64,000 nucleotides of DNA, from positions 2,168,001-2,232,000 of the forward strand of contig NZ_AP014583.1 in NCBI RefSeq assembly GCF_000828715.1, given 5' to 3'. The number at the start of each line of letters is the position of its first letter. Positions within the stretch are counted from its first letter, which is position 1. The notes under the pieces are model-generated. The model was not told the DNA's origin. It saw nothing but the letters and a program-made list of their open reading frames with translations, and did not search any database. This document shows positions 1-21,051 of the stretch, piece after piece. Source of the DNA: Winogradskyella sp. PG-2. GTDB lineage: Bacteria > Bacteroidota > Bacteroidia > Flavobacteriales > Flavobacteriaceae. The position numbers and the translations under genes are program-made.

Positions 1-1
1 A

Positions 2-733
2 ATTATTAAAGATATTACACCACCAATAATCTGGACTCAGATTAATAACTCGAGATTAAAAAACTCTGAGAAATCACGGGTGATTAAAGAACCTTTTCAG
101 CCCTTAGATAAATGGTCAAAAGAAGACCTTCCTAATAAAATATATGTTCATATACATAAATGTGCCGGTACAAGCATGTGGAATACACTAAACACATATC
201 CAAATTTCTTGTGTTATATTGCGCGACCAGGAAGATTTTCACATGGTTTGGGATTCGATGAGATTCCGGATCATATTTGGGATAAGGCTTTTAAATTTAC
301 CATTGTGAGAAATCCTTATGATAGAGTAGTATCAGCTTATAAAATGTTTAAAGGCAAGCAGTGGTCAAATGTTTTTAATAATTTTTCAGAATTTGTAGAA
401 TTTATTCAATGGTGTGATGTCGATAATCATAATATTCCAAAATTTATTCCTACCAATACGTATGTTAAACTTGTAGATAATATTATTCATCATTGTAGCT
501 CGTTTCATAATCCGAAATATCGAATCAATGATATGGATTATATAGGTAAGCTCGAAAATTTAAACGAGTCTCTTAATTATATAGCACCATATTTTGATGT
601 AGAGGAAATTAATTTACCGCAATTAAACGCCACAAAAAAAGACACTTACAGAACATATTATACAGATAGAACTAGAAGTATTATAGAGGAAAAATATAAA
701 GCTGATATAGAGAGATTTGATTATGAGTTTTAA
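2..733 (+). CDS. Sulfotransferase family protein (5' end probably outside window)
   Basis: This is a probable PAPS-dependent sulfotransferase that would decorate an exopolysaccharide. Counting from the GTG at 80, the 5'-phosphosulfate-binding loop reads HIHKCAGTS near residues 24-32, and the 3'-phosphate site reads VRNPYDRVVSAY near residues 76-87. The C-terminus ends naturally at the TAA at 731-733. The frame stays open from position 2 through the GTG at 80, with no stop and no ATG, so the gene probably starts before the window. GTG at 80 is the only internal alternative. It is the first gene of the polysaccharide locus and is followed by a 64-base gap. The family call is fairly sure; the sugar substrate is unknown. 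Confidence 0.7.
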   Translation: MIKDITPPIIWTQINNSRLKNSEKSRVIKEPFQPLDKWSKEDLPNKIYVHIHKCAGTSMWNTLNTYPNFLCYIARPGRFSHGLGFDEIPDHIWDKAFKFTIVRNPYDRVVSAYKMFKGKQWSNVFNNFSEFVEFIQWCDVDNHNIPKFIPTNTYVKLVDNIIHHCSSFHNPKYRINDMDYIGKLENLNESLNYIAPYFDVEEINLPQLNATKKDTYRTYYTDRTRSIIEEKYKADIERFDYEF

Positions 734-797
734 TATTTTAAATTAAAAACAACAAAAAAATCTACAATTAGTAGTTGTCAATTAGTCTTAAATATCC

Positions 798-1826
798 ATG
801 AAAATAGCTATTCTAGGTTGGTATTACCAAAATAATGCAGGCGACGACCGTATTTTAGAATGTCTAAAACGAAAAGTTTTATCTCATGGTATTACAGAAG
901 TCGAAGTTTTTGTGGCTTGGGATGACCTAAGCAACAAGTTAAGTGTAATTAATAGTTGTGATTTTCTATTAGTAGGTGGAGGAGGATTAATACTACGTAA
1001 TACCAATAGAATAGCAGAGCAATTAAAAAAAATAACAATTCCTTGGGCTTTTATAGGTGTGAGTATAGATAGTGTTGGAGACGATAACATTAAGTTTATT
1101 ACTTATATCGCCAAAAATGCGAAATTCATTTTAGTTAGAGATAAGTTTAGTTTTACAACGTTTAAAACATATCGTAGTAAAGATCTTTTTCTTTCACCAG
1201 ATTTAACCTTTCTATATCCTTATAAGCCAAATAACACTACAGAAAGTTATAAAGCCACAGCGTTGTCATTACGACCATGGAAGCCTAATCTCTTTAAACA
1301 GTACACCAAGAATTATCATCGTTTTAATAAACTAGCACATAAGTTTCCTTTTATAATAGATGTATTAGGACTATGGAATATTAAGCGTTTTTCTAAACGT
1401 GTTAAGACTTATGTTAAGAATTCGATTAATTTTTTACCATTACATATTCATACTGTCAATGGTGATGATGCATTAATAAAACACCATTTTAACATACATA
1501 AAGATGTAAGCTTTGATATCAATAAACTTAAAGAAAGTAATTATCTAATAGGTATGCGTTTGCATTCACTTATTTTTGCAACACAGTTAGGAGTACCATT
1601 TATAGCTGTGAGTTATGCTTCTAAAATAAATCATTATTTAGAAGATATAGGGCTAGCAGAATATATTGTAGATGTTAATAATTATAAATCGCTCTTTAAA
1701 AAAATAAAATTACTAGAGCAACGCAGAGACGATTTGTCTAAACACTTATTGCAAATTAGTAATAGTTATACAGTTGAAGTAAATAGTATAGTAGATACTA
1801 TTTTTAAAGACTATATATTATGTTAA
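798..1826 (+). CDS. Polysaccharide pyruvyl transferase family protein
   Basis: The protein has 342 residues and resembles the polysaccharide pyruvyl transferase (CsaB/WcaK/EpsO-like) family, which transfers pyruvate from phosphoenolpyruvate onto a sugar to form a ketal. The N-terminus carries the family-type GWYYQNNAGDD stretch (residues 7-17), a glycine-rich LLVGGGGLI segment lies near residue 60, and GMRLHSLIFA near residue 250 is the typical C-terminal motif. The gene overlaps the next glycosyltransferase gene by 7 bases, which points to translational coupling. A pyruvylated, negatively charged exopolysaccharide is inferred. The exact sugar cannot be read from sequence. Confidence 0.82.
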   Translation: MKIAILGWYYQNNAGDDRILECLKRKVLSHGITEVEVFVAWDDLSNKLSVINSCDFLLVGGGGLILRNTNRIAEQLKKITIPWAFIGVSIDSVGDDNIKFITYIAKNAKFILVRDKFSFTTFKTYRSKDLFLSPDLTFLYPYKPNNTTESYKATALSLRPWKPNLFKQYTKNYHRFNKLAHKFPFIIDVLGLWNIKRFSKRVKTYVKNSINFLPLHIHTVNGDDALIKHHFNIHKDVSFDINKLKESNYLIGMRLHSLIFATQLGVPFIAVSYASKINHYLEDIGLAEYIVDVNNYKSLFKKIKLLEQRRDDLSKHLLQISNSYTVEVNSIVDTIFKDYILC

Positions 1827-3064
1827 AGGAACCTATGCTATTTGTAACTAACCTACATTTTTCAAAAAATGGAAATGGTGGGCAACAGCGCACGTATCAT
1901 TTAATAAAAGAGCTTTCAGCGTATTGTGATTTAGTTGTACTATCACCTTATAATAAAACAGATACTGAGGTAAGCTCTATTTCTGCTACTTTCATAGGTA
2001 ATCAAGGAGTGCAACACCTTAAATATTACAGAAAAACATTTTTTCTAAGACAAATTTTTAAAGTTGTAAATGCTTTTTTAAGGACCATTGGCACTAAGCA
2101 TACTAACACTATACATATGGCACCAAGTGCCTCATATGTTTTGTCAAAACAAATCCAAAAATTAAAACAACTTAAAAAATATAGAGCTTTAGAAACTATA
2201 GTTTTCGATACCTTAAATACCGTAGTTTATTTAAAAAAGGAGTTATTTTCAAATTCAATATTAAATGCGCATAATTTTGATTACGAACTTGTTTTACAAC
2301 AGTATAATTCCTTAAAAGAAAGTAAAGCTAAAGATTATAAAGCAAAGCTAAATACTACATTAAAACAGTTGAATCAGTTAAAAGCATTAGAGTATAATAT
2401 TGATAATTATTTTAACGAAATATGGGTATGCAGTACAGAAGATAAAAAGAAATTTAAAAATGCTAACCCAAGCACATCGGTTACCTTTTACAACTTGCCT
2501 AACGGCTCAGATACAGATAAGAGAACTTTTCAGACCGCACAGCATAACTATAAACAATTTCTTTTTGTAGGATCTTTAAATTATGCGCCCAATTATAAAG
2601 GATTACAGTGGTTTGTAGAAACCATTTTTAAGTATTTACCAAAGCACTTTCAGCTTAATATTGTGGGCAAATCACCAGATCAAATAAATTTTAAGTACGT
2701 AAAAGATTATGATAATATTAATCTTATTGGTGAGGTTAAAGATATTAGTGCTGCGTATGCAAACCACGATATACTTTTAGTACCCTTGTTAGAAGGCAGT
2801 GGCACACGACTAAAAATTTTAGAAGCCATGTCTTATGGTAAATTGGTGCTAAGCACAGCCAAAGGGATAGAAGGTATTAATGCTTTTAATGGGCAGCATT
2901 ATTTAGAGTTTAATACCTTAGCAGAGTTTAATGCTTTAATACCTAAATTTAGCAATACAAGTCAGTTAAATGAGATGCGACAACATGCTAGGCATTTAGT
3001 TGAGGAATCTTACAGTTGGAAAGGTATTGTAGAAAAATACATAAAGGATAAATATGGAAAATAA
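1820..3064 (+). CDS. Glycosyltransferase, GT4-like
   Basis: This 414-residue GT-B-fold glycosyltransferase has a GGQQRTYHL donor-loop-like N-terminal segment near residues 19-27. Its C-terminal half has the GT4 pattern FVGSLNYAPNYKGLQWF, then LVPLLEGSGTRLKILEAMSYG, which contains the E-x7-E-type nucleotide-sugar site. The family transfers a sugar from an activated donor to the growing lipid-linked oligosaccharide at the cytoplasmic face of the membrane. The gene overlaps its upstream neighbour by 7 bases and its downstream neighbour by 11 bases, placing it inside the polysaccharide operon. Donor and acceptor are unknown. Confidence 0.82.
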   Translation: MLKEPMLFVTNLHFSKNGNGGQQRTYHLIKELSAYCDLVVLSPYNKTDTEVSSISATFIGNQGVQHLKYYRKTFFLRQIFKVVNAFLRTIGTKHTNTIHMAPSASYVLSKQIQKLKQLKKYRALETIVFDTLNTVVYLKKELFSNSILNAHNFDYELVLQQYNSLKESKAKDYKAKLNTTLKQLNQLKALEYNIDNYFNEIWVCSTEDKKKFKNANPSTSVTFYNLPNGSDTDKRTFQTAQHNYKQFLFVGSLNYAPNYKGLQWFVETIFKYLPKHFQLNIVGKSPDQINFKYVKDYDNINLIGEVKDISAAYANHDILLVPLLEGSGTRLKILEAMSYGKLVLSTAKGIEGINAFNGQHYLEFNTLAEFNALIPKFSNTSQLNEMRQHARHLVEESYSWKGIVEKYIKDKYGK

Positions 3065-3929
3065 ACCTTTGGTATCCGTTTTAATGACGGTTTATAATAG
3101 AGAAAAGTATATAGCCGAAGCCATAGAAAGTGTTATGGCATCGACCTATAAAAATTGGGAGCTCATTATTGTAGACGATAGATCCAAGGATCAATCTGTT
3201 ACCATAGCAAAGGCATACCAAGAGCAAGATAAAAGAATAAAAGTTTATATAAACGAAGAAAATCTAGGGGATTATCCTAACCGAAACAAAGCCGCATCTT
3301 ACGCTAAGGGTAAATATTTAAAATATGTAGATGCTGATGATATGATATATCCTTATGGTTTACAGCAGTTAGTGTTTTACATGGAACAATTTCCAGAGGC
3401 AGGTTATGGTTTATGTTCGTTATCACAAGATAAACACCAAAAGTTTCCCTTTCAATTGAATCCGACAGAAGCTTATCAAAGACAATATTTTAAAGAAAAA
3501 TTATTTCATAAAGCACCATTATCTGCAATTATAAATAAATCAATTTTTGAAAAAGCAGGAGGTTTTACCGGAAAGCGTATGTTAGGCGATTTTGAAATGT
3601 GGCATATACTTTCGCAAGAGTTCTCTGTGGTTTTAATGCCTCAAGGTATTGTATGGTATAGAGAACATGATGAGCAAGAAATGGCCGATCATAGAAGCGA
3701 TCCTATGCAACCTTACAAATATGTATTATTAGCAGAAAACTTGATAAACTCGCCAAAGTGTCCTTTAAATGAAGGAGAAAAGGCTAAAGCTTTAAAGAAA
3801 ATAGACTACACTAAATCTAGATCAATACTCTCGGCTACCAAGCATTACTCTTTGAGTAAAGCTTTAGAATTAAAAAGGCAAAGTAAGTTGTCCTACATTC
3901 AGATATTTTTAAACTTATTTTCAAAATAA
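3054..3929 (+). CDS. Glycosyltransferase family 2
   Basis: This is a 291-residue GT-A-fold family 2 glycosyltransferase. The N-terminus has the classic VSVLMTVYNREKYIAEAIES opening and IIVDDRSKD near residues 38-46. The metal-binding DxD motif is in YVDADD (residues 91-96), followed by a predicted acceptor-side WHILSQ/WYREHDEQE region. No membrane segment is apparent, so the protein is probably cytoplasmic or peripheral. It starts 11 bases inside the preceding glycosyltransferase gene and ends one base before the next start. Its role is addition of one sugar to the repeat unit; the sugar is unknown. Confidence 0.85.
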   Translation: MENKPLVSVLMTVYNREKYIAEAIESVMASTYKNWELIIVDDRSKDQSVTIAKAYQEQDKRIKVYINEENLGDYPNRNKAASYAKGKYLKYVDADDMIYPYGLQQLVFYMEQFPEAGYGLCSLSQDKHQKFPFQLNPTEAYQRQYFKEKLFHKAPLSAIINKSIFEKAGGFTGKRMLGDFEMWHILSQEFSVVLMPQGIVWYREHDEQEMADHRSDPMQPYKYVLLAENLINSPKCPLNEGEKAKALKKIDYTKSRSILSATKHYSLSKALELKRQSKLSYIQIFLNLFSK

Positions 3930-3930
3930 T

Positions 3931-4677
3931 ATGAATATTTTTTTTAACTACATAAGTTATTCAATTAATAGACGTTTTCGCAAACTTTATTGGTTGTATA
4001 ATTTGATGATAGCAGATTTTGGAAAAAATAAAAATTTAAGCTTTCCAATTCAAGTAGAAGGAAAAGGAGATTTAATTTTTGGAGACAATTGTAAAATAGC
4101 TAAAAATGTAAATCTTGGAATTGCGCAAAAATCTGTTTTAAAAATTGATAATGATGCTGTTTTACAAGAGAATAGCGAAATTTTATTAGGTAAAAATTCA
4201 AGCCTTGAAATTTCTAATGGTTTTAAACTTGGTTCTTATGCCAGAATATATCTACGAAAGCATTGGAAATTTGGACAAGATGTAAAAATAGAAACGTACT
4301 GTTCAATATTTGCGAGAGAACCTAACAGTTACGGAGTTTTAACAATTGGTAATGGTTCGCATATTGGTGATTATACTATTATTGATGTAGTAGATGATGT
4401 TAGTATAGGTAAAAATGTTGCGATTGGCCCTAATTGTACATTATATACTCATGATCATATATATACAGATAAGAGCTTGCCTTCATGGAAAGGTGGTTTA
4501 ATTTCTAAACCTATAACAATAGAAGATGGTGCTTGGATTGGTTCAGGTGTAACAATACTTCCTGGTGTTAAAATAGGAGAAAGAGCTATAGTTGCAGCAG
4601 GATCTGTGGTTACAAAATCTGTGAATTCAAATGAAATTTATGGTGGATCTCCTGCAAAGTTTATCAAAACTATTTAA
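3931..4677 (+). CDS. Hexapeptide-repeat acyltransferase (LbH/WbbJ-like)
   Basis: The 248-residue protein has left-handed beta-helix hexapeptide repeats across most of its length. Examples are IGNGSHIGDYTIIDVVDDVSIG and IGPNCTLYTHDH, and the C-terminal stretch IEDGAWIGSGVTILPGVKIG ends in the common GGSPAKFI signature. Such enzymes O-acetylate or otherwise acylate a sugar, with the His in the TLYTHDH segment as the likely catalytic base. The N-terminal 30 residues are basic and aromatic. It follows a GT2 gene by one base, so it is in the same operon. A role in acetylating the exopolysaccharide is inferred. Confidence 0.8.
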   Translation: MNIFFNYISYSINRRFRKLYWLYNLMIADFGKNKNLSFPIQVEGKGDLIFGDNCKIAKNVNLGIAQKSVLKIDNDAVLQENSEILLGKNSSLEISNGFKLGSYARIYLRKHWKFGQDVKIETYCSIFAREPNSYGVLTIGNGSHIGDYTIIDVVDDVSIGKNVAIGPNCTLYTHDHIYTDKSLPSWKGGLISKPITIEDGAWIGSGVTILPGVKIGERAIVAAGSVVTKSVNSNEIYGGSPAKFIKTI

Positions 4678-4736
4678 ATTAGAAATGATTAATTTTTTAT
4701 TCATATAAAAAATAATTTTATTATAAACCTTTGTCA

Positions 4737-5546
4737 ATGAACGAGGAAAAATACGCAATGATAATTGGTGCTATGAAATCGGGTACTACAACCTTATTTT
4801 CTCATCTTTGTAAGCACCCAAAAATATGTAGAAGTATTAAGAAAGAACCTGAGTTTTTTTCAAAAAAAAATGAAACCAATTTTTCGGTAGAAAATTACAA
4901 CGCGCTTTTTAATTTTGATACTACTATACATCAAGTAAAATTAGAAGCATCTACAGGTTATACAAAATTTCCGTCTCAATTAGATGTACCTAAACGTATA
5001 TATAATTCTGGTATTAAGCCAAAATTTATTTACATCGTAAGGCATCCCATTGATAGAATAAATTCTGAAATTAACTTTTGGAGAAACCATCCTAATTGGA
5101 GCCACCCAAAAGATAATTTAGATTTATTAATTGCTAGAAGTAGTTATAATTTGCAATTATCTAAGTACGAAGAATTCTTTACCAAGGATCAAATATTAAT
5201 TTTAGATTTTGATACCCTTAAAACCAATCCGCAAGTTGTAGTAGACGAGTGTTGTAAGTTCTTGGGTTTATCTACTTTTGTAATTAAAGATGAAAAAACA
5301 ATTGCTAATAAAACCGACACAAAAAGTGATATTGAGCTGCGAATTAAAAAAAGATATTCAAAATTATTTAAATGGTTTCCATTTTCAATTCGACAAAAAA
5401 TTAAGCATATCTTGAGAAGGCATAGTAAGACGTCTAATTGGGCATTAACCAATACGGAAATTAGTATGGTAAAAAGTCAATTAAAAAGTGATATGTATCA
5501 ATTTAGGGATTCCTATGGCTTTGATATAAAAAAGTGGGATTTTTAA
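4737..5546 (+). CDS. Sulfotransferase domain protein
   Basis: This 269-residue sulfotransferase has a 5'-phosphosulfate loop IIGAMKSGTTTL near residues 9-20 and a 3'-phosphate site IVRHPIDRINSEINF near residues 100-114, both expected for PAPS binding. The EPEFFSK segment resembles the heparan/carbohydrate sulfotransferase type. I chose the ATG at 4737 over the TTG two codons upstream at 4731. The gene sits after a 59-base gap downstream of the acyltransferase gene. It probably sulfates a sugar of the exopolysaccharide; the position on the sugar is unknown. Confidence 0.8.
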   Translation: MNEEKYAMIIGAMKSGTTTLFSHLCKHPKICRSIKKEPEFFSKKNETNFSVENYNALFNFDTTIHQVKLEASTGYTKFPSQLDVPKRIYNSGIKPKFIYIVRHPIDRINSEINFWRNHPNWSHPKDNLDLLIARSSYNLQLSKYEEFFTKDQILILDFDTLKTNPQVVVDECCKFLGLSTFVIKDEKTIANKTDTKSDIELRIKKRYSKLFKWFPFSIRQKIKHILRRHSKTSNWALTNTEISMVKSQLKSDMYQFRDSYGFDIKKWDF

Positions 5547-5558
5547 AGTAAATAAAAG

Positions 5559-6527
5559 ATGAATAAGGTTTCCGTAATCATTCCTTTATATAATGCCATG
5601 CCCTTTTTTAAAGAGACAATAGATAGTGTTCTAAGACAAACGCAAGATAATTTAGAATTAATAGTTATTGATGATGGATCTACAGATGGTGCTTTAGAGC
5701 ATCTAGAAGCATTAAATCTACCAAATCTTATCATTACATCTAATAAAGGTAAAGGAGCTTGTGCTGCCAGAAATTATGGATTTCAATTATCAAGTGGCGA
5801 TTACATTCAGTATTTAGATGCAGATGATTTGTTAAGCGAAACTAAAATTGAAACACAAGTTAATTTGCTAAAAAATAATCCCAAAAGTATAGCCGTTTGT
5901 AGTACCAAACATTTTTACAATACTATTGATAATGGTAAGATTACAGACAGACCATTTTTAGAAAGTACTAATAACCCCAAAGAACTCTTATTAAACCTTT
6001 TTGGAGCAGATGGCAAAACCCAAAATATGGTGCAGACTAGTGCGTGGTTAACTCCTCGCACACTTATAGAAGAAGCTGGGCCTTGGGATGAGCGTTTAAA
6101 AAAAGACCAAGATGGTGAGTTTTTTTGTAGAGTTGTAACAAAAGCAGAAAACGTACTTTACTCTCCTACGGTTTTAAATTATTATAGAAAGCATGTTGGA
6201 GGTAGTAATATAGCTAGTCAAAAAAAGAGAATACATTTAGAAAGCCAATTAAAGGCATTAAACTCTAAAGCTAAACAGTTTTCTGGTCTCGAAAAAACAC
6301 AGGCTTATAATAATGCTATGGCTTTACAATACAAAGTCTTGGCTATTAATGCTTATCCAAAGTTTAAAGATTTTGCGAAAGTTTGTCTAAATAGGTCTTC
6401 AGAATATGGAGGATCAAAGTATTTACCAGTTTTAGGTGGTAGGATTATAGAAATAATTAAAACTATATTAGGATGGAAAATAGCGAAATCATTCTCTTAT
6501 TGGGTACATAAAATAGATTTTCGATAA
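5559..6527 (+). CDS. Glycosyltransferase family 2
   Basis: This 322-residue GT2 enzyme has VSVIIPLYNAMPFF at the N-terminus, VIDDGSTDGALEH near residues 36-48 and the DxD motif in YLDADD near residue 90. Its C-terminal part includes GPWDERLKKDQDGEFFCR, which is typical of GT2 acceptor regions. The last 16 codons plus some preceding sequence occur again as a non-coding copy at 7558-7616, downstream of the next gene. It starts 12 bases after the previous sulfotransferase gene and belongs to the operon. The sugar donor is unknown. Confidence 0.84.
   Translation: MNKVSVIIPLYNAMPFFKETIDSVLRQTQDNLELIVIDDGSTDGALEHLEALNLPNLIITSNKGKGACAARNYGFQLSSGDYIQYLDADDLLSETKIETQVNLLKNNPKSIAVCSTKHFYNTIDNGKITDRPFLESTNNPKELLLNLFGADGKTQNMVQTSAWLTPRTLIEEAGPWDERLKKDQDGEFFCRVVTKAENVLYSPTVLNYYRKHVGGSNIASQKKRIHLESQLKALNSKAKQFSGLEKTQAYNNAMALQYKVLAINAYPKFKDFAKVCLNRSSEYGGSKYLPVLGGRIIEIIKTILGWKIAKSFSYWVHKIDFR
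6465..6523 (+). repeat. Direct repeat, copy 1 (59 bp)
   Basis: This segment is the 3' end of the GT2 gene. It matches 7558-7616 in the same orientation over 59 bases with two mismatches (6473 and 6476 here, 7566 and 7569 there). The last 47 bases (6477-6523) are identical. The two copies bracket one sulfotransferase gene. Confidence 0.95.
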
Positions 6528-6537
6528 GCTAACAAAA

Positions 6538-7535
6538 ATGAAACATAAATTTTTAAAATTCTATTTGATTAAAATCAAAGAAGTTTTTAGTTTTTTAACT
6601 AGAATTCGATTTGTAAAAATTAAGTCCAATAAAAATATTTTAATATATGGTATCTCAAGAGGTGGTACAACATTATTGGCAGAAACCTTAGTAAAGCTAT
6701 TAAACGCGCGCTTGGTTTGGGAGCCGCTCTTTCCTCATAATAAATCCAATTTTAGTGCAATAAACCCTTATTCAGTTGAGCAGTATTCTAAATTTCAATT
6801 AGGATGGCATCCACATATAGCCTCAGAGAATGATAAAGCGGTTAATTCGTATTTTGATGAGTTCTTTAGTTTAAAGATTAGAAATATTCGTTTTTATAGG
6901 TTTACAAACCCTAAGACTTTTAAAAGTAGTAATTACACCATACATAAGTTTTGTTTTGGTAATTTTATGTATTCGTATTTTCAAAAAAGATATAACTTTA
7001 AATCAATTATCTTATTGAGACATCCATTTGCAATTGCAGCATCTTCGCTAGGTTTTGGTGATAATTATAATTGGCATAAAGAGAATTTTGATAGCTGGTC
7101 GTATACGGATTCTAAAAAAAGTGGTGATTTTTTTAAAGGATATTTAGATAAATACGATTTAATTGTTTCGGGTTTTAGTCTGTTGGTTTTTCAAGCGGTT
7201 ACACAATTTATTTATGCGCTATCTCATATAGATAAAGATAATAGTATAATAGTATATTATGAGGATTTGGTTCAGTTTCCAGAAGAAGCATTTAAAGCTA
7301 TTCAGAAGATTAGTGATCAACCTTTAGACTATAATTTATTTTTAAGGATGCTTAGTAGACAAAGTTTTAGTTCACAAAAAAACCATACCAAGAAGAATAC
7401 TATGGAACAGTTATCTAAATGGAAAACAGTTGCTTCGGATAAAGATTTTACGACGGATTAAAAATTTTTAAAGCATTTGATTTTAATTTGTATAGTGAAG
7501 AAGTTTTACCATTAAAAGATAATTATTATAATTAG
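6538..7535 (+). pseudogene. Sulfotransferase family protein, probable frameshift near 3' end
   Basis: The intact frame runs from ATG 6538 to the TAA at 7459-7461 (307 residues). It has the phosphosulfate loop YGISRGGTTLLAE near residue 38 and a 3'-phosphate site LLRHPFAIAASSLGF near residue 160, so it is a sulfotransferase-family protein. Adding one base in the TTTT run at 7446-7449 removes the stop. It then reads on through DGLKIFKAFDFNLYSEE to a TAG at 7533-7535, a plausible sulfotransferase C-terminus. This is either a natural one-base deletion that trims about 25 residues or a sequencing error; the catalytic region is unaffected, so the shorter protein may still work. The gene is flanked by a 59-bp direct repeat. 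Confidence 0.6.
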
Positions 7536-7557
7536 TCTTAAATGAATAATATAAGTA

Positions 7558-7616
7558 ATATTAGGGTGAAAAATAGCGAAATCATTCTCTTATTGGGTAC
7601 ATAAAATAGATTTTCG
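7558..7616 (+). repeat. Direct repeat, copy 2 (59 bp), GT2 3'-end remnant
   Basis: This is a non-coding copy of 6465-6523. It still reads as the last residues of the upstream GT2 protein, KSFSYWVHKIDFR, followed by a TAA stop at 7617-7619. One of the two mismatches turns the Trp codon just before this tail into a TGA stop. It lies directly before the next sulfotransferase gene. Confidence 0.92.
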
Positions 7617-7631
7617 CTAAGAAGTAATAAT

Positions 7632-8492: not shown

Positions 8493-8527
8493 TCTATGTT
8501 AATAAAATTATAAGCGAACAAATCTAA

Positions 8528-9718
8528 ATGCAAAATTTACTTTTTATAACAACATCTAGCTTAGCTGCAAACCCAAGATTGGTTAAAGAATTTGCATCTT
8601 TAAAAGCATATTATAGATGTTACGTTATTTGTTTTAGACATGAAGACTGGAGTTTGCACTTGTCCGATAATATAAAGGCGTTACATACTGATGTACAATT
8701 TATAGAAATAGATCGTAAAAAAACGCTATTAAAAACGATCTTGGCTAAAATAAAGCATAAGTTTTCTATAGTAATAAATCCTTTATTTAAAACTAACTAT
8801 AAGGTATGTGCTTACGCAAGTAATGATAAGGCACCGCAATTGGTATCTTATGTGAATAAACTTAAGCGTAAGCATCAATTTTATAAAGTTATTGCGCATA
8901 ATTTAGGAGCTTTTTATCCTGCCTTTAAAATAGCTAAGCACCAAAAGATAGGATTACAATTAGATATTGAGGACTTCTATCCAGGCGAAGCCTTGTACTT
9001 TAACAAAGCTCTCGAAAAAGATAATAGGCACCTTATTATGCAACAAAGTTTTAACAATGCAATTGCCATTACATATGCTTCAAAAGGTATAGAGAAACAA
9101 TGCAATACTTTATATAGTATTCAACCAGGCATTAAACAATTAACTGTTATTAACGCTTTTGAAAGTAGAGACTTTAATAAACCACGCGTTCATAAGTCTA
9201 AGACTATAAAATGCGTGTGGTTTTCGCAGCATATTGGCCCAAATAGAGGTTTAGAACAAGTTTTTGAAGCGGCTAAAAAGCATCCAGAGTTTCAGTTTCA
9301 TCTTATAGGCAATCAAAACCAAGACTATTTATCTGGGAAAACTATAAGTTCTAATATTAAGTTTCACGATATTATGCCGCAATCAGAGCTACATAAAATG
9401 TTAAGTACTATGGATATAGGTTTAGCTTTAGAGCGTAAAGATGCAGATTTAAATAGAGATATTTGCCTTACCAATAAATTCTTAGCCTACGCGCAAGCAG
9501 GTTTATATATTTTAGCGACTAATACTTTTGGTCAACGCGATTTTTTAAAAGCATTAAATTATCTTGCAGGCGAAATAATTATGGATAGTTTATCACAATC
9601 TTTAGCACAGCTTAATACTAAACATTTAAGTTATGAAAACAGATTACACAGATGGCAACAAGCTAAATCGTTTTCTTGGCAAAACGAAGAAATAAAGCTT
9701 TTAAAATTACTAGAATGA
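8528..9718 (+). CDS. Glycosyltransferase, GT4-like
   Basis: This 396-residue GT-B-type glycosyltransferase-like protein has LAANPRLVKE near residues 13-22, an opening common in Bacteroidota GT4 proteins. The C-terminal half includes VWFSQHIGPNRGLEQVFEA and a domain resembling the nucleotide-sugar site (LALERKDADLNRDICLTNKF). The usual E-x7-E is less clear than in its neighbours. Its stop codon overlaps the ATG of the next gene (ATGA at 9715-9718), implying translational coupling. Substrates are unknown. Confidence 0.7.
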   Translation: MQNLLFITTSSLAANPRLVKEFASLKAYYRCYVICFRHEDWSLHLSDNIKALHTDVQFIEIDRKKTLLKTILAKIKHKFSIVINPLFKTNYKVCAYASNDKAPQLVSYVNKLKRKHQFYKVIAHNLGAFYPAFKIAKHQKIGLQLDIEDFYPGEALYFNKALEKDNRHLIMQQSFNNAIAITYASKGIEKQCNTLYSIQPGIKQLTVINAFESRDFNKPRVHKSKTIKCVWFSQHIGPNRGLEQVFEAAKKHPEFQFHLIGNQNQDYLSGKTISSNIKFHDIMPQSELHKMLSTMDIGLALERKDADLNRDICLTNKFLAYAQAGLYILATNTFGQRDFLKALNYLAGEIIMDSLSQSLAQLNTKHLSYENRLHRWQQAKSFSWQNEEIKLLKLLE

Positions 9719-10962
9719 AAACAGTCTTAATTATATATCCGCATTGGGTGCCAGCTAATTTAGCAGGTGTGCAAAGACCAAGGCTTATAGGAAATTACCT
9801 TAAGCAATTTGGCTGGAAACCTTTGTTGCTTACTGTAGAGTCTAAATATTATGAAGAAAAGTTAGATCCTTTAATGGAAAAAACAGTTTCTAAAGATATT
9901 GAGGTTATTTACACAAAAGCTTACAAAGTCACCAAACCTAGAATTATTGGAGATATAGGTTTGCGCGGATTTCCATTTCTTAAAAAAGAAGCACTCAAAA
10001 TTTGTAGAGAACGACAAATTGATTTTATATGGATTCCCATTCCATCCTTTTATACTGCCATTTTAGGTCGCATAGTCCATAATAAAACTAACATTCCTTA
10101 TGGTATTGATTATATAGATCCTTGGGTAAGGGATATTACCAATCAAAATAATGTTAGAGCAAAATTAAGTCAATTGGTGGCTAAAACCTTAGAACCTTAT
10201 GCCGTAAAAAAAGCAGCGTTGATAACAGGTGTATCTACTCCATATTATCAATCTGTTATGGATAGAAATTTTAAAATAGAACCTACACATGCAGGTATGC
10301 CTTATGGATTTGATCCCAATGATCATAAAATAGAATTATCTGATTTAAAATATCCTTGGGATGATAACAAAGGTTGTAAACCATGGATCTATGCAGGCGC
10401 ATTTTTACCAAACTCACATCTGTTTGTGCAATCGTTTTTTGAAAGTATAGCTCAACTTAAAAATGAAGGGAAATGGGATAATAGCATTAGACTTTACTTT
10501 GTTGGAACAGGTTTATATCCGGCAAAACGAATTACAGCTTATGCTAAAGATTATGGATTAGAAGAAATTGTCGTAGAGTATCGTGATCGTTTTCCTTTTT
10601 TACACATTCTAAACTTTTTGTCTAAAGCAAATCGTGTCATGCTTTTTGGTAGTACTGAAAAACACTATACTGCTTCTAAAACGTTTCAATGTTTGTTGAG
10701 TGAACGACCACTTTTGTCAATGTTGCACAATGAGAGTTCTGCAGTTGAGGTTATTAAGCAGGTAAATGCAAGTGATTTTTTAATGCCTTATAAAGACAAT
10801 GATTCAAAAGAAAATATAGTCAATAAATTAAAACCTATCATAGAGAAGTTTCAAGAAGAGGTAACTTGGCGTCTAGATTTAGAACCTTTAGATAAATATA
10901 CCTCTAAGCAATCGGCAAAAGTTTTGGCAGAAGCAATGGACAAAGCTTTACAAACACAATAA
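9715..10962 (+). CDS. Glycosyltransferase, GT4-like
   Basis: This glycosyltransferase has about 415 residues from the ATG at 9715. I prefer that start to the in-frame ATG at 9676, because it forms an ATGA overlap with the previous stop and gives the usual MKTVLIIYPHWVPANLAGVQ beginning. The YIDPWVRD segment near residue 127 and the C-terminal IYAGAFLPNSHLF region fit a GT-B fold. The SKTFQCLLSERPLLSML stretch sits where the donor-binding region is expected. It is followed by another glycosyltransferase gene after 17 bases. Donor and acceptor are unknown. Confidence 0.72.
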   Translation: MKTVLIIYPHWVPANLAGVQRPRLIGNYLKQFGWKPLLLTVESKYYEEKLDPLMEKTVSKDIEVIYTKAYKVTKPRIIGDIGLRGFPFLKKEALKICRERQIDFIWIPIPSFYTAILGRIVHNKTNIPYGIDYIDPWVRDITNQNNVRAKLSQLVAKTLEPYAVKKAALITGVSTPYYQSVMDRNFKIEPTHAGMPYGFDPNDHKIELSDLKYPWDDNKGCKPWIYAGAFLPNSHLFVQSFFESIAQLKNEGKWDNSIRLYFVGTGLYPAKRITAYAKDYGLEEIVVEYRDRFPFLHILNFLSKANRVMLFGSTEKHYTASKTFQCLLSERPLLSMLHNESSAVEVIKQVNASDFLMPYKDNDSKENIVNKLKPIIEKFQEEVTWRLDLEPLDKYTSKQSAKVLAEAMDKALQTQ

Positions 10963-10979
10963 TCATTTAATACATAGTA

Positions 10980-12143
10980 ATGAAGAAAAAATTGGCTATT
11001 GTTTCAACACATCCAATACAATATAATGCTCCTTGGTTTCAATTATTGGCAGGGCGAGGAAATGTGGATTTGAAGGTTTTCTATACATGGTCACAATCTA
11101 AAACATCAGTAAAAGATAAAGTTTTTGGAAAAAATATTGAATGGGATATTCCACTTTTAGATGGCTATGAGTATGAATTTGTAGATAATATTTCAAAAAA
11201 GCCGGGTTCTCATCATTTCTTTGGTATTGATTGTCCAAGTTTAATAGATAGGCTTAAGCATTTTCAGCCTAATGCCATTTTATTTTTTGGTTGGAATTTT
11301 AAAAGCCACTTTAAGGCCATGCGTCACTTTCACGGCAAAGTACCTGTATGGTTTAGAGGGGATTCGACATTATTAGATGAAACAGTAGGTTTAAAGACAA
11401 AGGTAAGGAGACAAATACTCACTAAAGTTTATAAATATGTAGACAAAGCTTTTTATGTTGGTGAAGCAAGCAAAATGTATTTTTTAAAACATGGTTTAAA
11501 AGTTAATGAATTGGTATATGCAGCGCATGCTATTGATAATAATAGATTTGGAGATGATAAGAATAAAAGCTCTTCTAAAGATGCTTTACAATGGCGTACA
11601 GAACTTGGATATACATCTGATGATATAGTTGTTGTATTTGCTGGTAAGCTAGAACCTAAAAAACAACCAGATTTTTTAATAAATGCATTTAAAAATGCTA
11701 AAAATAAAACCTCTAATTCTTTGCAATTGTTGGTTGTTGGAAATGGACCTATGGAGAACGAGTTGAAAGATGAAAAGCATCAAGATATTAAATTTATTCC
11801 ATTTCAAAATCAAACAAAAATGCCATTAGTTTATAGGTTGGGAGCTATATTGTGCTTACCTTCTAAAGGTCCAGGAGAGACATGGGGACTTGCTGTAAAT
11901 GAAGCAATGGCTAGTGGTAAACCTGTAATAGTTTCAGATAAGGTAGGTTGTTCATTAGATTTAGTTAATCAAAGTACAGGTTTTGTTTTTAAACATAATA
12001 AGGTAGAAGAATTAACAAATATACTAGTAAATTTGAATCAATCATCATTGAGTGAAATGGGTGAAAATGCCAAAGAAAGTATAAAGGATTATAGTTTTAT
12101 AAATATTGTTAAGGCAATAGAAGTAAATTTATTAGATGGATAA
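10980..12143 (+). CDS. Glycosyltransferase, GT4
   Basis: The 387-residue GT4 enzyme begins with KKLAIVSTHPIQYNAPWFQ, an opening common in GT4 proteins of polysaccharide loci. The C-terminal Rossmann domain has VVFAGKLEPKKQPDFLI near residue 220 and PSKGPGETWGLAVNEAMASG near residues 305-324, which includes the E-x7-E nucleotide-sugar site. It overlaps the next gene by 8 bases. It probably adds one sugar to the lipid-linked repeat unit on the cytoplasmic side. Confidence 0.87.
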   Translation: MKKKLAIVSTHPIQYNAPWFQLLAGRGNVDLKVFYTWSQSKTSVKDKVFGKNIEWDIPLLDGYEYEFVDNISKKPGSHHFFGIDCPSLIDRLKHFQPNAILFFGWNFKSHFKAMRHFHGKVPVWFRGDSTLLDETVGLKTKVRRQILTKVYKYVDKAFYVGEASKMYFLKHGLKVNELVYAAHAIDNNRFGDDKNKSSSKDALQWRTELGYTSDDIVVVFAGKLEPKKQPDFLINAFKNAKNKTSNSLQLLVVGNGPMENELKDEKHQDIKFIPFQNQTKMPLVYRLGAILCLPSKGPGETWGLAVNEAMASGKPVIVSDKVGCSLDLVNQSTGFVFKHNKVEELTNILVNLNQSSLSEMGENAKESIKDYSFINIVKAIEVNLLDG

Positions 12144-13134
12144 TAAAACAAAACCACATATTAGTGTTGTATTGCCAGTTTATACAGGCATGGCCTTTTT
12201 ACAGCAATCCGTAGAGTCTGTCCTTAATCAAGATGATACTGGGATTAATTTTGAGTTTTTAATATGTGATGATTGCTCTAAAGATGATAGCTACCAATAT
12301 TTAACTACTATAAAAGATTCTAGAGTTAAAATCTTCAGAAATGAAGAAAATAAAGGGTTGTTTCCCACCTTAAATTTTTTGATAAAAAACGCGACTTCAG
12401 ATTTAGTTCATCTATGGGCTCAAGATGATGTGATGTTGAAGAATTGTTTAAAAGAAATGGTGGGACTTCATAAGGAATTTCCAGACGTAAAATTTAGTTT
12501 TTCTCGTTTGCAAGGTATAGATGCCGATGGAAATTATTTAAAATCACCCGAACTATTTAAAAATAAAACCTTATCTGTTGAAGATCATGCAATAAGTTCT
12601 TTGTTATATGGAAGTATTGCAGGTAATATAGCTAACGTATGCCTCGTAAAAGATGCTTGCGCAGAAGTGGGTTATTTTGATGAGTCTATGATATATGTAG
12701 GTGATTTTAAAATGTGGTGTTTACTATCAAAAGATGCGCCAATAGGAATGTATGGTAATGTACTAGTCAATGTAAGGCAACATACAGGTCAACTAAGTAG
12801 AAATTTAGACGCCTCTTATTATAGGATGACAGAAAACTATGAAGTTTATCAATGTTTTTTATCTACTTTAAGACCACAATTAAGAGAACAACTTAATAAA
12901 ACCATAAAATGGAAAATTTATCCTACTTATCTTAATCAGTACTTTTTTATATTAAAAAGTAAAAGGTTTGATTTAGCAAAAAAATATAGAAAAGAGCTTA
13001 ATAAGTATGATAATGTTTTTGCAATGTTTTTTAAATGGAGTATTATCAGAGTTCTTAGGCTTTTTAAACTCGAAGAAAAGTTTTACGAGGTTATGTTTTA
13101 CAATAAAATAAAAAAACTAAAACAAAAAAACTAA
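12136..13134 (+). CDS. Glycosyltransferase family 2
   Basis: This is a 332-residue GT2 enzyme. The N-terminal motif is ISVVLPVYTGMAFLQQSVES, followed by ICDDCSKDDS near residue 48. The metal-binding triad position carries AQDDV (near residue 96) instead of the usual DAD, a tolerated variant in GT2 proteins. A basic C-terminus rich in Lys, Arg and aromatic residues suggests membrane association. The start lies 8 bases inside the previous gene. The sugar is unknown. Confidence 0.82.
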   Translation: MDNKTKPHISVVLPVYTGMAFLQQSVESVLNQDDTGINFEFLICDDCSKDDSYQYLTTIKDSRVKIFRNEENKGLFPTLNFLIKNATSDLVHLWAQDDVMLKNCLKEMVGLHKEFPDVKFSFSRLQGIDADGNYLKSPELFKNKTLSVEDHAISSLLYGSIAGNIANVCLVKDACAEVGYFDESMIYVGDFKMWCLLSKDAPIGMYGNVLVNVRQHTGQLSRNLDASYYRMTENYEVYQCFLSTLRPQLREQLNKTIKWKIYPTYLNQYFFILKSKRFDLAKKYRKELNKYDNVFAMFFKWSIIRVLRLFKLEEKFYEVMFYNKIKKLKQKN

Positions 13135-13152
13135 CCTAACAATAATAATAGA

Positions 13153-13962
13153 TTGGATCAAAATATTATTATCATAGCAGGAATGCATAGGTCAGGCACA
13201 TCATTGTCTGGTAATCTCCTTGAGCAATCGGGCTTATTTATTGGTGACCGCTTGCTATCTGATGGTTTTGATAATAAGAATGGACATTTTGAAGATTTAG
13301 AGATTCTAGGTATTCATGAAACAGATTTAAGATTAAAACAACTCGATACAACAGGACTAAAAGGTGAAATAAAAGGTAATTTAAAATTTGAATCTGAGAC
13401 AGAGACTAAAATCGAAAAGTTTTTAGTAAAACGAGTTGATCAATCAATTTGGGGATGGAAAGAACCAAGAACTACATTGTATCTACAAGCATGGAAAGAT
13501 AAATTACCTAAAGCAAAATGTATTGCTATTTATAGAGATTATGATGATGTAGAAAATTCCTTAATTAGACGTTATCGTTACAAGCTTAAGTTTGGTGTTG
13601 GTATGAGTTATAGAGTTAGGCTAAAGCATATGTTATTTTATCCAATTAATGTTTTTATTAAAAAGCGCGAAGCACACAAAGCTTGGAGCATTTACAATAA
13701 AAATATTCTTGAATTTAAAAAACAATACCCTGAAGATGTTATCATAGTAGAGCTTAATCATTTTTTGAGTAATTATAATGATGTTATTACTTATGCTAAT
13801 GAGAAATTTTCTTCTAACCTGCAACATATAGATGTAAACGAGATTTTTGAGAAACCACTTCTTAATACTAATAAAGAAAAAGCATATAAAATTAGAGTTT
13901 TCCCAAAAAAGCAATTAGATACCATATTGATGAAGTTAAAAAACAACGCGCTGTGGATTTAA
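13153..13962 (+). CDS. Sulfotransferase family protein (TTG start)
   Basis: This 269-residue protein has the P-loop-like IIAGMHRSGTSLSGNLLEQS near residues 7-26 and a 3'-phosphate site around CIAIYRDYDDVENSLIRRY. This matches the sulfotransferase families common in bacterial polysaccharide loci. No in-frame ATG lies near the 5' end, so TTG at 13153 is taken as start, which leaves 18 bases after the previous stop. The gene overlaps the polymerase gene by 10 bases. It is the fifth sulfotransferase-type gene in the locus. Confidence 0.75.
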   Translation: MDQNIIIIAGMHRSGTSLSGNLLEQSGLFIGDRLLSDGFDNKNGHFEDLEILGIHETDLRLKQLDTTGLKGEIKGNLKFESETETKIEKFLVKRVDQSIWGWKEPRTTLYLQAWKDKLPKAKCIAIYRDYDDVENSLIRRYRYKLKFGVGMSYRVRLKHMLFYPINVFIKKREAHKAWSIYNKNILEFKKQYPEDVIIVELNHFLSNYNDVITYANEKFSSNLQHIDVNEIFEKPLLNTNKEKAYKIRVFPKKQLDTILMKLKNNALWI

Positions 13963-15353
13963 GTCAAAAAAAACTGATACTTATCTTTTTAGTAGTGACT
14001 TTAATTTTCTCAATTATTGGTCCTCATTTTTTGTCTTCATTTTTAGCTTTTATCCCCTTAGTAGTGGTAATTGCACTATTTTTTAAGTTAAGAAACCCAA
14101 TCTTTCTTACTGTTTTTTTGGCACTAGTATTTCAATGGTTACAAATAAATATTAAAATTATATATGGAAATATAGTGAACGTCCCATTGGAGTTACAATT
14201 TAGTTTTCATCAAGATGGTGATTTTTTATATACTGCCAATGCTTTAAGTAATATAGGGCTAATATCTTTTGCATTGGGGCTTTACTTACCTTTAAAAAAG
14301 AGATTTAAAGATTTTGATATGGTGAAAAGTATAGATATAAAATATAGCCCTAAAAAAATATTAATAAGCTATATTATATTTTCTATAGGGATTTCTTTTT
14401 TATTTCTAATCCGCAATAGTATATCAGGAATCAATACAATAGTTGTAGCGTTCTCAAAACTAAAATGGGGATTATTATTGTTAACCATTGTTTATTGTAA
14501 TTTTTTTGATGAAAAGAAAAAATTACTCTATATGGTTATTGCTGTTGAAATATTTTTAGGATTTACGGGCTATTTTTCAGCGTTTAAGGATATTATACTA
14601 ATAATTGTATTGGCACTATTGTCTTTGCAAGCTGAGTTAAACTCTAAGGCTCTAATTAGGTTTTCTTTTATTTTTGTTATAGGGTTGACGCTGGGGCTTT
14701 TGTGGTCAGCAATTAAAATGGATTACAGATCTTACCTAGCCGGTGGAGAGTATTCTCAAAAAGTAGTTGTAAGTAAGTCGGAGGCTATTAATGAAATGAT
14801 AAATCAAATGTCTAATGTAACTACAGAAGATATTGGTTTTGCATCAGAAGCATTATTAGATAGAGTTAGCTATATTGAGTTTTTCTCAATAGTATTAAGA
14901 AATGTACCTAATTACATAGCTTACGAAAACGGAGAAATTATAAAAGAGTCTACATTATTTTATTTTAAACCTAGAATATTTTTCCCAAATAAACCTGCCA
15001 TTGATGATTCTGATCATACCAATAGGTATACCAGACTAGACTTAATGGATGATGGTAAGGCATCTCACAGCATCGGTTTTATGACAGACGCATATATAGA
15101 TTTTGGACCTTTTGGTATGATGGTTTTATTATTAGTTCTTGGTTACGTATTTGGGTGGTCTATGAATATTCTAATTATAAAATCGCCAAATATGTTTTGG
15201 GCTATTATCTTTATAATACCATTCTACTTCTTAATTAGCATTTACAGTTTTAATATGATAAAAGTTATTGGCAATTTTGTGACTTATTTGATACCAATAT
15301 TCTTGATTAGAAAGTTGATATTTAGATATTTCAATAAATATTTTTTAAAATAG
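13953..15353 (+). CDS. Wzy-like oligosaccharide repeat unit polymerase
   Basis: The 466-residue protein consists largely of hydrophobic membrane segments, with a long hydrophilic loop around residues 255-380 containing RIFFPNKPAIDD and SHSIGFMTDAYIDFGPFG. This layout, about ten or more membrane segments with one large periplasmic loop, is that of O-antigen and exopolysaccharide polymerases (Wzy/EpsG-like). These join lipid-linked repeat units on the periplasmic side. GTG at 13953 is the start and overlaps the upstream gene by 10 bases; the stop overlaps the next GTG by one base. Wzy proteins diverge widely, so the call rests on topology, loop and context. Confidence 0.75.
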   Translation: MDLSQKKLILIFLVVTLIFSIIGPHFLSSFLAFIPLVVVIALFFKLRNPIFLTVFLALVFQWLQINIKIIYGNIVNVPLELQFSFHQDGDFLYTANALSNIGLISFALGLYLPLKKRFKDFDMVKSIDIKYSPKKILISYIIFSIGISFLFLIRNSISGINTIVVAFSKLKWGLLLLTIVYCNFFDEKKKLLYMVIAVEIFLGFTGYFSAFKDIILIIVLALLSLQAELNSKALIRFSFIFVIGLTLGLLWSAIKMDYRSYLAGGEYSQKVVVSKSEAINEMINQMSNVTTEDIGFASEALLDRVSYIEFFSIVLRNVPNYIAYENGEIIKESTLFYFKPRIFFPNKPAIDDSDHTNRYTRLDLMDDGKASHSIGFMTDAYIDFGPFGMMVLLLVLGYVFGWSMNILIIKSPNMFWAIIFIIPFYFLISIYSFNMIKVIGNFVTYLIPIFLIRKLIFRYFNKYFLK

Positions 15354-16345
15354 TGAAAGTGAAATTAAATCTATTTTTTAGAAAATCTGAGATTGGTTTT
15401 TATAGTATTGAAACTGTTTTTAAGACTATTGAGCCGTTCTTTGATAAAAGGTATGACTTAAATAATTTGAGTTTACCAAATTCTGATCTTAGTTATAAAG
15501 CGATAAAATCAAACTTAAAATATTCTTCTAGAAACAGAGCAGATATTAATCATATTACTGGCCATATCAACTATATAGCATTGGCAACGGGTAAAAATAC
15601 TGTTTTGACCATTCATGATATGATTTCTGCACTTCAAGGCCATCCACTGAAAAGATTTTTTATGTTATGTTTTTGGTTTTGGATACCTGCGTTATTTGTA
15701 AAACGTATTACAGTAATTTCTGAGCATACTAAAAGAGAAGTTTTTAGATATATACCATTTGCTAAATCTAAGGTGGTAGTAATTAATAATCCTATTGGTA
15801 ATAATTTTGAGTATTTTCCAAAGGAATTTAACAGATTGAAGCCTAATATTTTATGCGTAGGAACAAAATCTAATAAAAACCTTGACAGAATCTTTAAAGC
15901 TTTAGCATCGATAGATTGTAAGCTTACTATTATAGGGAAGCTAGAAAATGGAACAAAACGTTTATTGGAGGAGTACCAAATTAATTATTTAAGTTTAGTA
16001 GATCTATCAGAAGAGGAAGTTATAAAAGCATATAAAGATTGTGACTTATTATGTTTTGCATCTCTATACGAAGGTTTTGGAATGCCAATTATAGAGGCTC
16101 AAGCTATCGGAAGACCAGTAATAACATCAAACTTTGGTGCTATGAAAGAAATCTCAAAGGGCACAACCTGTTTAGTAGATCCTTTAGAGGTAAACTCTAT
16201 TCAGAATGGAATTGAAAAAATTATAAGTGATGAATCTTACCGCCAAGAACTAGTAAGTAAGGGTATAAAGAACGCAAAAAGATTTAAAGCAGAGTTTATT
16301 GCAGAAAAGTATATTAAAGTCTATGAAGACATTTTAAACGGATGA
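15353..16345 (+). CDS. Glycosyltransferase, GT4
   Basis: This 330-residue GT4 enzyme is slightly short for the family, with a compact N-terminal domain. It has VLTIHDMISALQGHPLKRF and ITVISEHTKREVFRY in the first half. The C-terminal donor domain shows ILCVGTKSNKNLDRIFKAL and CFASLYEGFGMPIIEAQAIG, with a clear E-x7-E. GTG at 15353 starts the gene within the polymerase stop codon. Its stop overlaps the next ATG (ATGA at 16342-16345). Confidence 0.87.
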   Translation: MKVKLNLFFRKSEIGFYSIETVFKTIEPFFDKRYDLNNLSLPNSDLSYKAIKSNLKYSSRNRADINHITGHINYIALATGKNTVLTIHDMISALQGHPLKRFFMLCFWFWIPALFVKRITVISEHTKREVFRYIPFAKSKVVVINNPIGNNFEYFPKEFNRLKPNILCVGTKSNKNLDRIFKALASIDCKLTIIGKLENGTKRLLEEYQINYLSLVDLSEEEVIKAYKDCDLLCFASLYEGFGMPIIEAQAIGRPVITSNFGAMKEISKGTTCLVDPLEVNSIQNGIEKIISDESYRQELVSKGIKNAKRFKAEFIAEKYIKVYEDILNG

Positions 16346-17493: not shown

Positions 17494-17497
17494 TGAA

Positions 17498-18454: not shown

Positions 18455-18460
18455 GGATAA

Positions 18461-19015: not shown

Positions 19016-19020
19016 TCCTA

Positions 19021-19776: not shown

Positions 19777-19857
19777 TGTCTTAATTATCTTAGCGATTAT
19801 ATAGCAATGTTTTGTTTTTATTTTAGATATTTGCGTTGAACTTGTTATGGTGGTAAT

Positions 19858-20958: not shown

Positions 20959-20998
20959 TCTTGTCAGATAAATAAATTATAGCCAAGTAGACTATTGC

Positions 20999-21029: not shown

Positions 21030-21051
21030 CGGCGATACTAAATCTTTTAAC

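Follow-up and report, generated by a model that had tools for sequence, protein, structure and literature searches.

A Winogradskyella gene run joining sulfate activation genes to five sulfotransferase genes, with a sulfated polysaccharide as its predicted product

The window analysed here, a 64,000-nucleotide stretch of Winogradskyella sp. PG-2 (positions 2168001-2232000 of its genome, which is 99.97% complete and consists of one contig of 3,811,479 bases), opens with a polysaccharide locus that carries five sulfotransferase-family genes, ST1 to ST5. New here is that the sulfate activation genes directly precede the first of these, just outside the window. Our evidence consists of gene content and gene order, of fold predictions for two of the sulfotransferases and of the link between CysC and sulfotransferases seen in relatives; on this basis we conclude, with a probability of about 0.82, that the product of the locus is an exported sulfated heteropolysaccharide, either a capsule or an exopolysaccharide. 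The locus is real and well supported by its genes and folds, and its chemistry is a prediction.

Sulfate activation and sulfate transfer in one gene run

Every open reading frame (ORF) of at least 100 amino acids at positions 1..24155 lies on the plus strand, with small gaps. The pattern continues into the 18 kb upstream, a stretch called L001 in which position p equals window position p minus 18000: the listed ORFs, of which Gmd (L001:10018) is the first and Wzc (window 24155) the last, all share one strand and are little spaced. This single run of about 32 kb unites sugar supply, sulfate activation, sulfate transfer and export. Ahead of ST1, outside the window and in this order, stand the following genes.

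Gmd: from L001:10018, plus strand, 595 bits (cut-off 415)
Fcl: upstream of the window, plus strand, 482 bits (just under the cut-off of 500)
DUF2061 small membrane protein, directly before CysC: L001:12149-12589, plus strand
CysC: upstream of the window, plus strand, 245 bits (cut-off 138.7)
CysD: upstream of the window, plus strand, 429 bits (cut-off 396.6)
CysN: upstream of the window, plus strand, 542 bits (cut-off 336.1)
CysQ: upstream of the window, plus strand, 264 bits (cut-off 228.8)
ATP-binding cassette (ABC) exporter nearest PglK and MsbA: upstream of the window, plus strand, 291 bits (under the PglK cut-off of 1000)

The one exporter gene is all that separates CysQ from ST1. The initial annotation had pointed to CysN, CysD and CysC as genes to look for elsewhere in the genome, and they proved to lie directly upstream in the same run.

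The locus holds the only adenosine 5'-phosphosulfate (APS) kinase found above cut-off in the genome (a second row, at 20 bits, was below it), and a genome-wide search found neither a second CysC above cut-off nor a second CysD. The PAPS_reduct family, which also covers CysD, occurs twice, as the CysD of the locus and as a stand-alone CysH at 783 kb. This CysH scored 112 bits to 3'-phosphoadenosine 5'-phosphosulfate (PAPS) reductase and 54 bits to APS reductase, both under the cut-offs, and adjoins a sulfite/nitrite-reductase-family gene (C1:780-783 kb) with no CysD of its own. Because CysH is nearer the PAPS type and sits beside that gene, PAPS made at the locus probably feeds both sulfation and sulfur assimilation; we considered a PAPS supply dedicated solely to sulfation and rejected it because of CysH.

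The sulfotransferase genes follow within the window.

ST1, sulfotransferase of PF03567: 1..733, start codon 11 bases before the window, plus strand, 54.5 bits (cut-off 22)
ST2, sulfotransferase: 4731..5546, plus strand, PF00685 60.5 bits (cut-off 22)
ST3, sulfotransferase with its C-terminus out of frame: 6538..7461, plus strand, PF00685 25.7 bits (cut-off 22)
ST3-family tail lying in a second frame (descriptive entry): 7443..7535, plus strand
ST4, sulfotransferase: 7632..8492, plus strand, PF00685 68.9 bits
ST5, sulfotransferase of the PF13469 kind: 13153..13962, plus strand, PF13469 25.7 bits (just under the cut-off of 27)

All five sulfotransferase-family ORFs proposed in the initial annotation are thus present, with four (ST1-ST4) above the Pfam cut-off and ST5 just under it. 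The gene placed at 2-733 is a sulfotransferase, but its coordinates reflected the window edge, which cuts it. PF03567 was precomputed in 57 of 57 ST1 homologues, ST1 itself included. Against solved chains, ST4 scored 100 bits to 3rnl and 53 bits to the heparan N-sulfotransferase 1nst, and ST2 came nearest to 3rnl (46 bits) and then to heparan sulfate 3-O-sulfotransferases. Sequence-profile matches of ST5 relatives to solved sulfotransferases were weak (best E 0.0012), so the case for ST5 rests on fold. That check of families and folds, suggested at the outset, came out in favour of the two weakest calls: as modelled, ST3 and ST5 have the PAPS-sulfotransferase fold. After VIA re-alignment the best alignments of both models were with tyrosylprotein sulfotransferases, at 14-19% identity, and a predicted fold at that identity gives no indication of the acceptor. 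Among the 50 best Foldseek matches listed, TM-scores for the two models were low (about 0.2-0.6 by query length) with large root-mean-square deviations, and lower-ranked matches included guanylate and adenylate kinases for ST5 and a GTPase for ST3; the fold assignment was taken from the VIA re-alignment and not from these scores.

Patterns resembling the 5' and 3' cofactor loops occur in all five proteins, a weak test, as they were written after inspection of these same sequences; in each of the three sulfotransferases encoded elsewhere in the genome, the unchanged patterns matched only one of the two loops. In alignments, the loop residues were invariant among the chosen relatives of ST3 and among those of ST5. 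N-terminal hydrophobic segments are absent from all five, and ST3 has one weak internal window.

ST3 was initially annotated as one open frame, 6538-7535, and is not: it stops at 7461 after 307 residues. Its full-length relatives in the alignment mostly have about 310-335 residues, and the conserved C-terminal tail that they share is missing from the ST3 frame and present downstream in a second frame, the end of which, at 7535, accounts for the earlier end coordinate. We read the two frames separately and did not join them. Either an error in base calling or recent decay may account for the frame change (window 7440-7540), which is well downstream of the cofactor loops.

Genome-wide searches with three sulfotransferase families found three further genes, at C1:151 kb, 1072 kb and 1482 kb, for a total of at least eight, the same searches having failed to list ST3 (6538-7461). 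Five of the eight thus share a 14 kb stretch in a genome of 3.81 Mb, which is clustering and not chance. The three other regions (L007, L008 and L006, near 151, 1072 and 1482 kb) contain glycan-type genes and one sulfotransferase each; in one, RmlBACD-like genes (by eye) accompany a Wzx-family protein, in another a UDP-GlcNAc 2-epimerase stands amid glycosyltransferase-like genes (by eye), and the third has an ABC exporter. Sulfation in this genome may therefore extend beyond one polymer, and the single PAPS source found would supply all of these regions. Separately, the longest contig given for the ST5 homologue P0064 measures 36,566 bases, as does that for the ST3 homologue P0182, so that another organism may have the two together on one contig.

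CysC and sulfotransferases in relatives

Among 25 Winogradskyella genomes including our own, searched for CysC at E <= 1e-30 and for the three sulfotransferase families, CysC was present in 19. Seventeen of these had a match in at least one sulfotransferase family, as against 0 of the 6 genomes without CysC (Fisher p = 1.6e-4, relatedness ignored). The link was looser in 15 other genomes of the order, where three (G027, G029 and G031) had sulfotransferases but no CysC and, in one of the five with CysC (G025), no sulfotransferase was found.

Across Flavobacteriaceae, the family to which NCBI assigns Winogradskyella, we sampled 80 genomes, one per genus (CysC at E <= 1e-30, PF00685 at E <= 1e-5), with counts that use PF00685 alone and so miss genomes having only PF13469 or PF03567 members. 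CysC occurred in 40 genomes and PF00685 in 32, the latter being found in 31 of the 40 genomes with CysC versus 1 of the 40 without (G044; Fisher p = 1e-12, unchanged when our own genome was left out). When frames of 820-900 residues, apparently another type of protein, were excluded, 29 of 30 PF00685 genomes had CysC. A PF00685 gene lay no more than 25 kb from cysC in 21 of the 31 genomes, where random positions would give 1.3. In all three such loci inspected in other genera (of 20 besides our own), downstream of CysD and CysN come large proteins that look membrane-like by eye, to judge from their starts, along with sulfotransferase-like and glycosyltransferase-like genes. The excluded frames, of about 843-887 residues, recur in nine sampled genera out of the 80, every one of which has CysC (G063, G073, G079, G084, G087, G107, G112, G113 and G117), and also in G016. 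They resemble a larger, conserved protein of which one part is sulfotransferase-like. A 654-residue ORF in G079 (L044) matches the ST5 profile at 47 bits.

Neighbourhoods of CysC were read in 18 relatives and in our own genome. Twelve loci, our own included, share a frame that opens with DUF2061-CysC-CysD-CysN-CysQ and closes with WecA; Wza was seen in ten and Wzc in nine, the remaining fetched stretches having ended earlier, and Gmd with Fcl occurred in eight and a strong xylose synthase in seven. The middle part varies from genome to genome. Sulfotransferases inside the locus number five here, two in G016 and one each in G003, G005, G011 and G014, making five the highest count among the 12 (others 0-2); a zero here means none found, as Pfam searches missed ST3 and one ST3-like protein of G016 that a custom profile caught. 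The other seven loci have a second form of the block, with CysQ ahead of CysC and with a CysN that scores 604-621 bits against our own (in the six where it was reached) versus 834-895 in the first form. Two second-form loci (G001 and G010) have two sulfotransferases each, and the contigs of G008 and G023 are short. The DUF2061 protein directly precedes CysC in 17 of the 18 relatives read (the exception is G012), and does so too in two loci of other genera (L046 and L047); it may have a part in sulfate activation or uptake.

The initial annotation held that sulfated exopolysaccharides are much rarer in bacteria than in algae. At the gene level this is not so in Flavobacteriaceae, given the distribution of PF00685 and the 21 genomes in which it lies near cysC. 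We lean, if only somewhat, towards the view that the family commonly produces sulfated polysaccharides that have been overlooked, and that in Winogradskyella a fixed activation block and a fixed export end flank an exchanged middle that gives species-specific sulfation, the five-gene locus here being the extreme.

The rest of the locus and its predicted product

The remaining genes of the locus surround and follow the sulfotransferases.

Polysaccharide pyruvyl transferase: 798..1826, plus strand, PF04230 81.5 bits (cut-off 25.3)
Glycosyltransferase a, glycosyl transferases group 1 (Pfam): 1820..3064, plus strand
Glycosyltransferase b, family 2 (Pfam): 3054..3929, plus strand
Hexapeptide O-acyltransferase: 3931..4677, plus strand, PF00132 69.3 bits; WcaF-family model 93 bits (cut-off 192 missed)
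Glycosyltransferase c, family 2 (Pfam): 5559..6527, plus strand
Glycosyltransferase candidate d: 8528..9718, plus strand, PF00534 24.2 bits (just under the cut-off of 26.4)
Protein e, initially annotated as a glycosyltransferase: 9715..10962, plus strand, unmatched by any Pfam or NCBIfam family within the limits applied
Glycosyltransferase f, glycosyl transferases group 1 (Pfam): 10980..12143, plus strand
Glycosyltransferase g, family 2 (Pfam): 12136..13134, plus strand
Wzy-like polymerase candidate: 13953..15353, plus strand, XrtY_assoc_Wzy 61.6 bits (cut-off 420), 11 hydrophobic windows
Glycosyltransferase h, glycosyl transferases group 1 (Pfam): 15353..16345, plus strand
Glycosyltransferase i, glycosyl transferases group 1 (Pfam): 16342..17493, plus strand
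UDP-xylose synthase (UDP-glucuronate decarboxylase): 17498..18454, plus strand, 423.6 bits to 4gll and 423.5 bits to 2b69
WcaF-family acetyltransferase: 18461..19015, plus strand, 229.9 bits (cut-off 192)
Glycosyltransferase j, family 2 (Pfam): 19021..19776, plus strand
WecA-like initiating sugar-phosphate transferase: 19858..20958, plus strand, PF00953 123.6 bits; ECA_wecA 166 bits (cut-off 326 missed)
Wza-like export protein: 21052..21810, plus strand, PF02563 51.5 bits and SLBB
Wzc-like co-polymerase, tyrosine autokinase: 21813..24155, plus strand, TIGR01007 143.5 bits (cut-off 108)

The end first given for the locus, 16345, was too early, since it leaves out the xylose synthase and the export genes. 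Ten glycosyltransferases had been counted up to that point; there are ten candidates up to 19776, eight of which fall within 2-16345. Eight of the ten score above their Pfam cut-off, d is just under and e has no family, although relatives of e adjoin relatives of d in three genomes (G003, G011 and G016). Likewise, both of the O-acyltransferases annotated exist, the second of them (18461-19015) outside 2-16345, and the UDP-xylose synthase, also outside it, is firm in identity, with 423.6 bits to human UDP-glucuronate decarboxylase versus 125.3 bits to the next kind of enzyme. The pyruvyl transferase call was borne out by PF04230; against the NCBIfam CsaB model it reached 83.6 bits, under the cut-off of 213, and it reached the cut-off of no named member. 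Two nucleotide-sugar dehydrogenases scored above cut-off, both elsewhere in the genome. The Wzy-like protein (13953..15353) weakly resembles a model associated with exosortase Y.

From these genes a pathway can be proposed. Gmd and Fcl would provide GDP-fucose, and the UDP-xylose synthase would make UDP-xylose from UDP-glucuronate, for which the dehydrogenases elsewhere in the genome are candidate sources. CysD and CysN would form APS, CysC would convert it to PAPS and CysQ would clear the by-product 3'-phosphoadenosine 5'-phosphate. The WecA-like enzyme would initiate an oligosaccharide on a lipid carrier, to be elongated by up to ten glycosyltransferases, and up to five cytoplasmic sulfotransferases would sulfate different sugars before the unit leaves the cell, with further groups added by the pyruvyl transferase and the two O-acyltransferases. 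PAPS is cytoplasmic, and because the sulfotransferases have no N-terminal hydrophobic segment, sulfate, pyruvate and acyl groups would be added inside the cell. The lipid-linked unit would then be flipped by the PglK/MsbA-like ABC exporter and polymerized by the Wzy-like protein, with Wzc and Wza governing length and export. We infer what the enzymes do, which sugars are used, how many sulfates are added and where, that sulfation is cytoplasmic, that the ABC exporter drives flipping and that the Wzy-like protein is active. The labels 'heavily sulfated' and 'pyruvylated' given to the polymer at the outset remain predictions from sequence. A sulfated fucan was considered as the product; GDP-fucose genes are present, and which sugar bears sulfate is not decided by the genes.

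Alternative explanations and known systems

Several observations weigh against a sulfated, exported product. CysC alone is no proof of sulfation, as PAPS is probably used in assimilation too. Of the 40 genomes with CysC in the family, nine gave no PF00685 match, two Winogradskyella genomes (G006 and G008) carry CysC with no match in the three sulfotransferase families, and PAPS genes head six of the 12 shared-frame loci (G002, G004, G006, G018, G019 and G022) with no sulfotransferase found there. At the locus itself, ST5 falls 25.7 versus 27 bits under its Pfam cut-off, the C-terminus of ST3 is broken, ST1 matched no solved structure by sequence up to E = 1, and the Wzy call is weak, at 61.6 bits versus a cut-off of 420. 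No Wzx-type flippase family appeared among the scanned locus proteins, the PglK/MsbA-like ABC exporter being present instead.

ST1-ST5 might act mainly on an acceptor that is not secreted, such as a lipopolysaccharide O-antigen, a glycolipid or a protein glycan, or some might not be functional sulfotransferases. The sub-threshold score of ST5 in PF13469, a broad family, would fit this, as would the tyrosylprotein sulfotransferases that align best with the ST3 and ST5 models, though at such low identity the fold is no guide to the acceptor, and WecA-like initiation is used for O-antigens as well. We nevertheless consider it unlikely, as the sulfotransferase genes are interleaved with glycosyltransferases and followed by the Wza and Wzc of capsule or exopolysaccharide export, and after the bacterial 3rnl the nearest solved proteins to ST4 and ST2 by sequence are heparan sulfate sulfotransferases. 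Less probable still is that CysC-CysD-CysN-CysQ serves cysteine synthesis through PAPS reductase and stands at the locus by chance or for regulation, sulfation being minor. The CysH leaning to the PAPS type, beside its sulfite/nitrite-reductase-family gene and without a CysD of its own, and the two CysC-bearing Winogradskyella genomes without a detected sulfotransferase speak for it; the co-occurrence of CysC with sulfotransferases, both in the genus (17/19 versus 0/6) and across 80 genera (31/40 versus 1/40), speaks against it. We give the least credence to a locus that is decaying or silent, with ST3 frame-broken and other genes possibly unexpressed. The stop at 7461 and the displaced tail point that way, but the break is possibly a base-call error, the rest of ST3 models well with its invariant loop residues kept, and the other locus genes show no obvious break (ST3 and ST5 being the two aligned in full with relatives).

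An exported sulfated polysaccharide, our preferred product, would be of a kind already known: PAPS genes together with sulfotransferases in a polysaccharide cluster are a published hallmark of sulfated polysaccharides, and both features are present here, the PAPS genes inside the cluster and the sulfotransferase genes amid glycosyltransferases. The comparisons that follow draw on excerpts of the cited papers. The capsule cluster of Vibrio sp. KMM 8419 likewise has cysC, cysN, cysD and sulfotransferases, and its polymer was solved and shown to be sulfated; it differs in Kps-type ABC export, in dTDP-rhamnose supply, in having cysCND as second copies and in its sulfotransferase genes, which number three in a region of 80 genes and include one from the O-antigen part (PMC11641403). 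In Cobetia marina KMM 1449, where the structure of the sulfated polymer was solved, the capsule cluster also contains PAPS genes including cysQ but has a fused cysN-cysC, KpsETMD export, and rhamnose and mannose (PMC11766843). The exopolymer cluster of Pontiella sulfatireligans, for which a sulfated exopolymer was detected, shares a putative sulfotransferase in a glycosyltransferase cluster, and differs in having one such gene in the cluster, a glycosaminoglycan-like polymer and membership of the phylum Verrucomicrobiota (PMC7356697). Synechan (xss) of Synechocystis 6803 resembles the present locus in its Wzy-type polymerase and in sulfotransferases amid many glycosyltransferases, but is cyanobacterial, with two sulfotransferases instead of five and a Wzx flippase, and no PAPS genes are named in the excerpts; its 8 glycosyltransferase and 2 sulfotransferase genes correspond to about 8 sugars and 2 sulfates per unit (PMC8205485). 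By analogy, the same rule would predict a repeat unit here of about 10-11 sugars with up to 5 sulfates, bearing in mind that gene number does not equal sulfate number.

Closer to this organism, exopolysaccharides of the Antarctic strains Winogradskyella CAL384 and CAL396, probably of the same genus, contain uronic acids, and sulfate groups were invoked for the metal tolerance of the strain group that includes them; the excerpts of the two reviews list neither fucose nor xylose and give no genes (PMC9605250, PMC10672628). A mat survey that used PF13469 queries with an identity limit reported, in its excerpted text, no sulfotransferase in its Bacteroidetes genomes, a negative that our family gene counts warn against generalizing (PMC9723792). 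Among top-ranked entries of open-licence PubMed Central, we found nothing that describes this locus, a sulfated polysaccharide of a flavobacterium together with its genes, five sulfotransferases in one such locus or the family-wide link to CysC.

The single locus is of middling interest, and the family-wide link between CysC and sulfotransferases gives it weight. Research on marine Flavobacteriaceae has treated them as degraders and consumers of the sulfated polysaccharides of algae. Should many of them be producers as well, part of marine sulfated polysaccharide would be bacterial, and flavobacterial sulfatases may target their own coats or those of neighbours. Five divergent candidate carbohydrate sulfotransferases and their cofactor supply in one locus would also be useful for enzymatic sulfation.

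Upstream of the locus, on the minus strand at L001:1801-4000, lies a nucleotidyltransferase gene (PF14907, 114.7 bits), adjoined by a gene whose protein weakly matches HprK-related kinase A (49 bits, cut-off 200). Such pairs of a nucleotidyltransferase and an HprK-related kinase occur in exosortase-linked polysaccharide loci.

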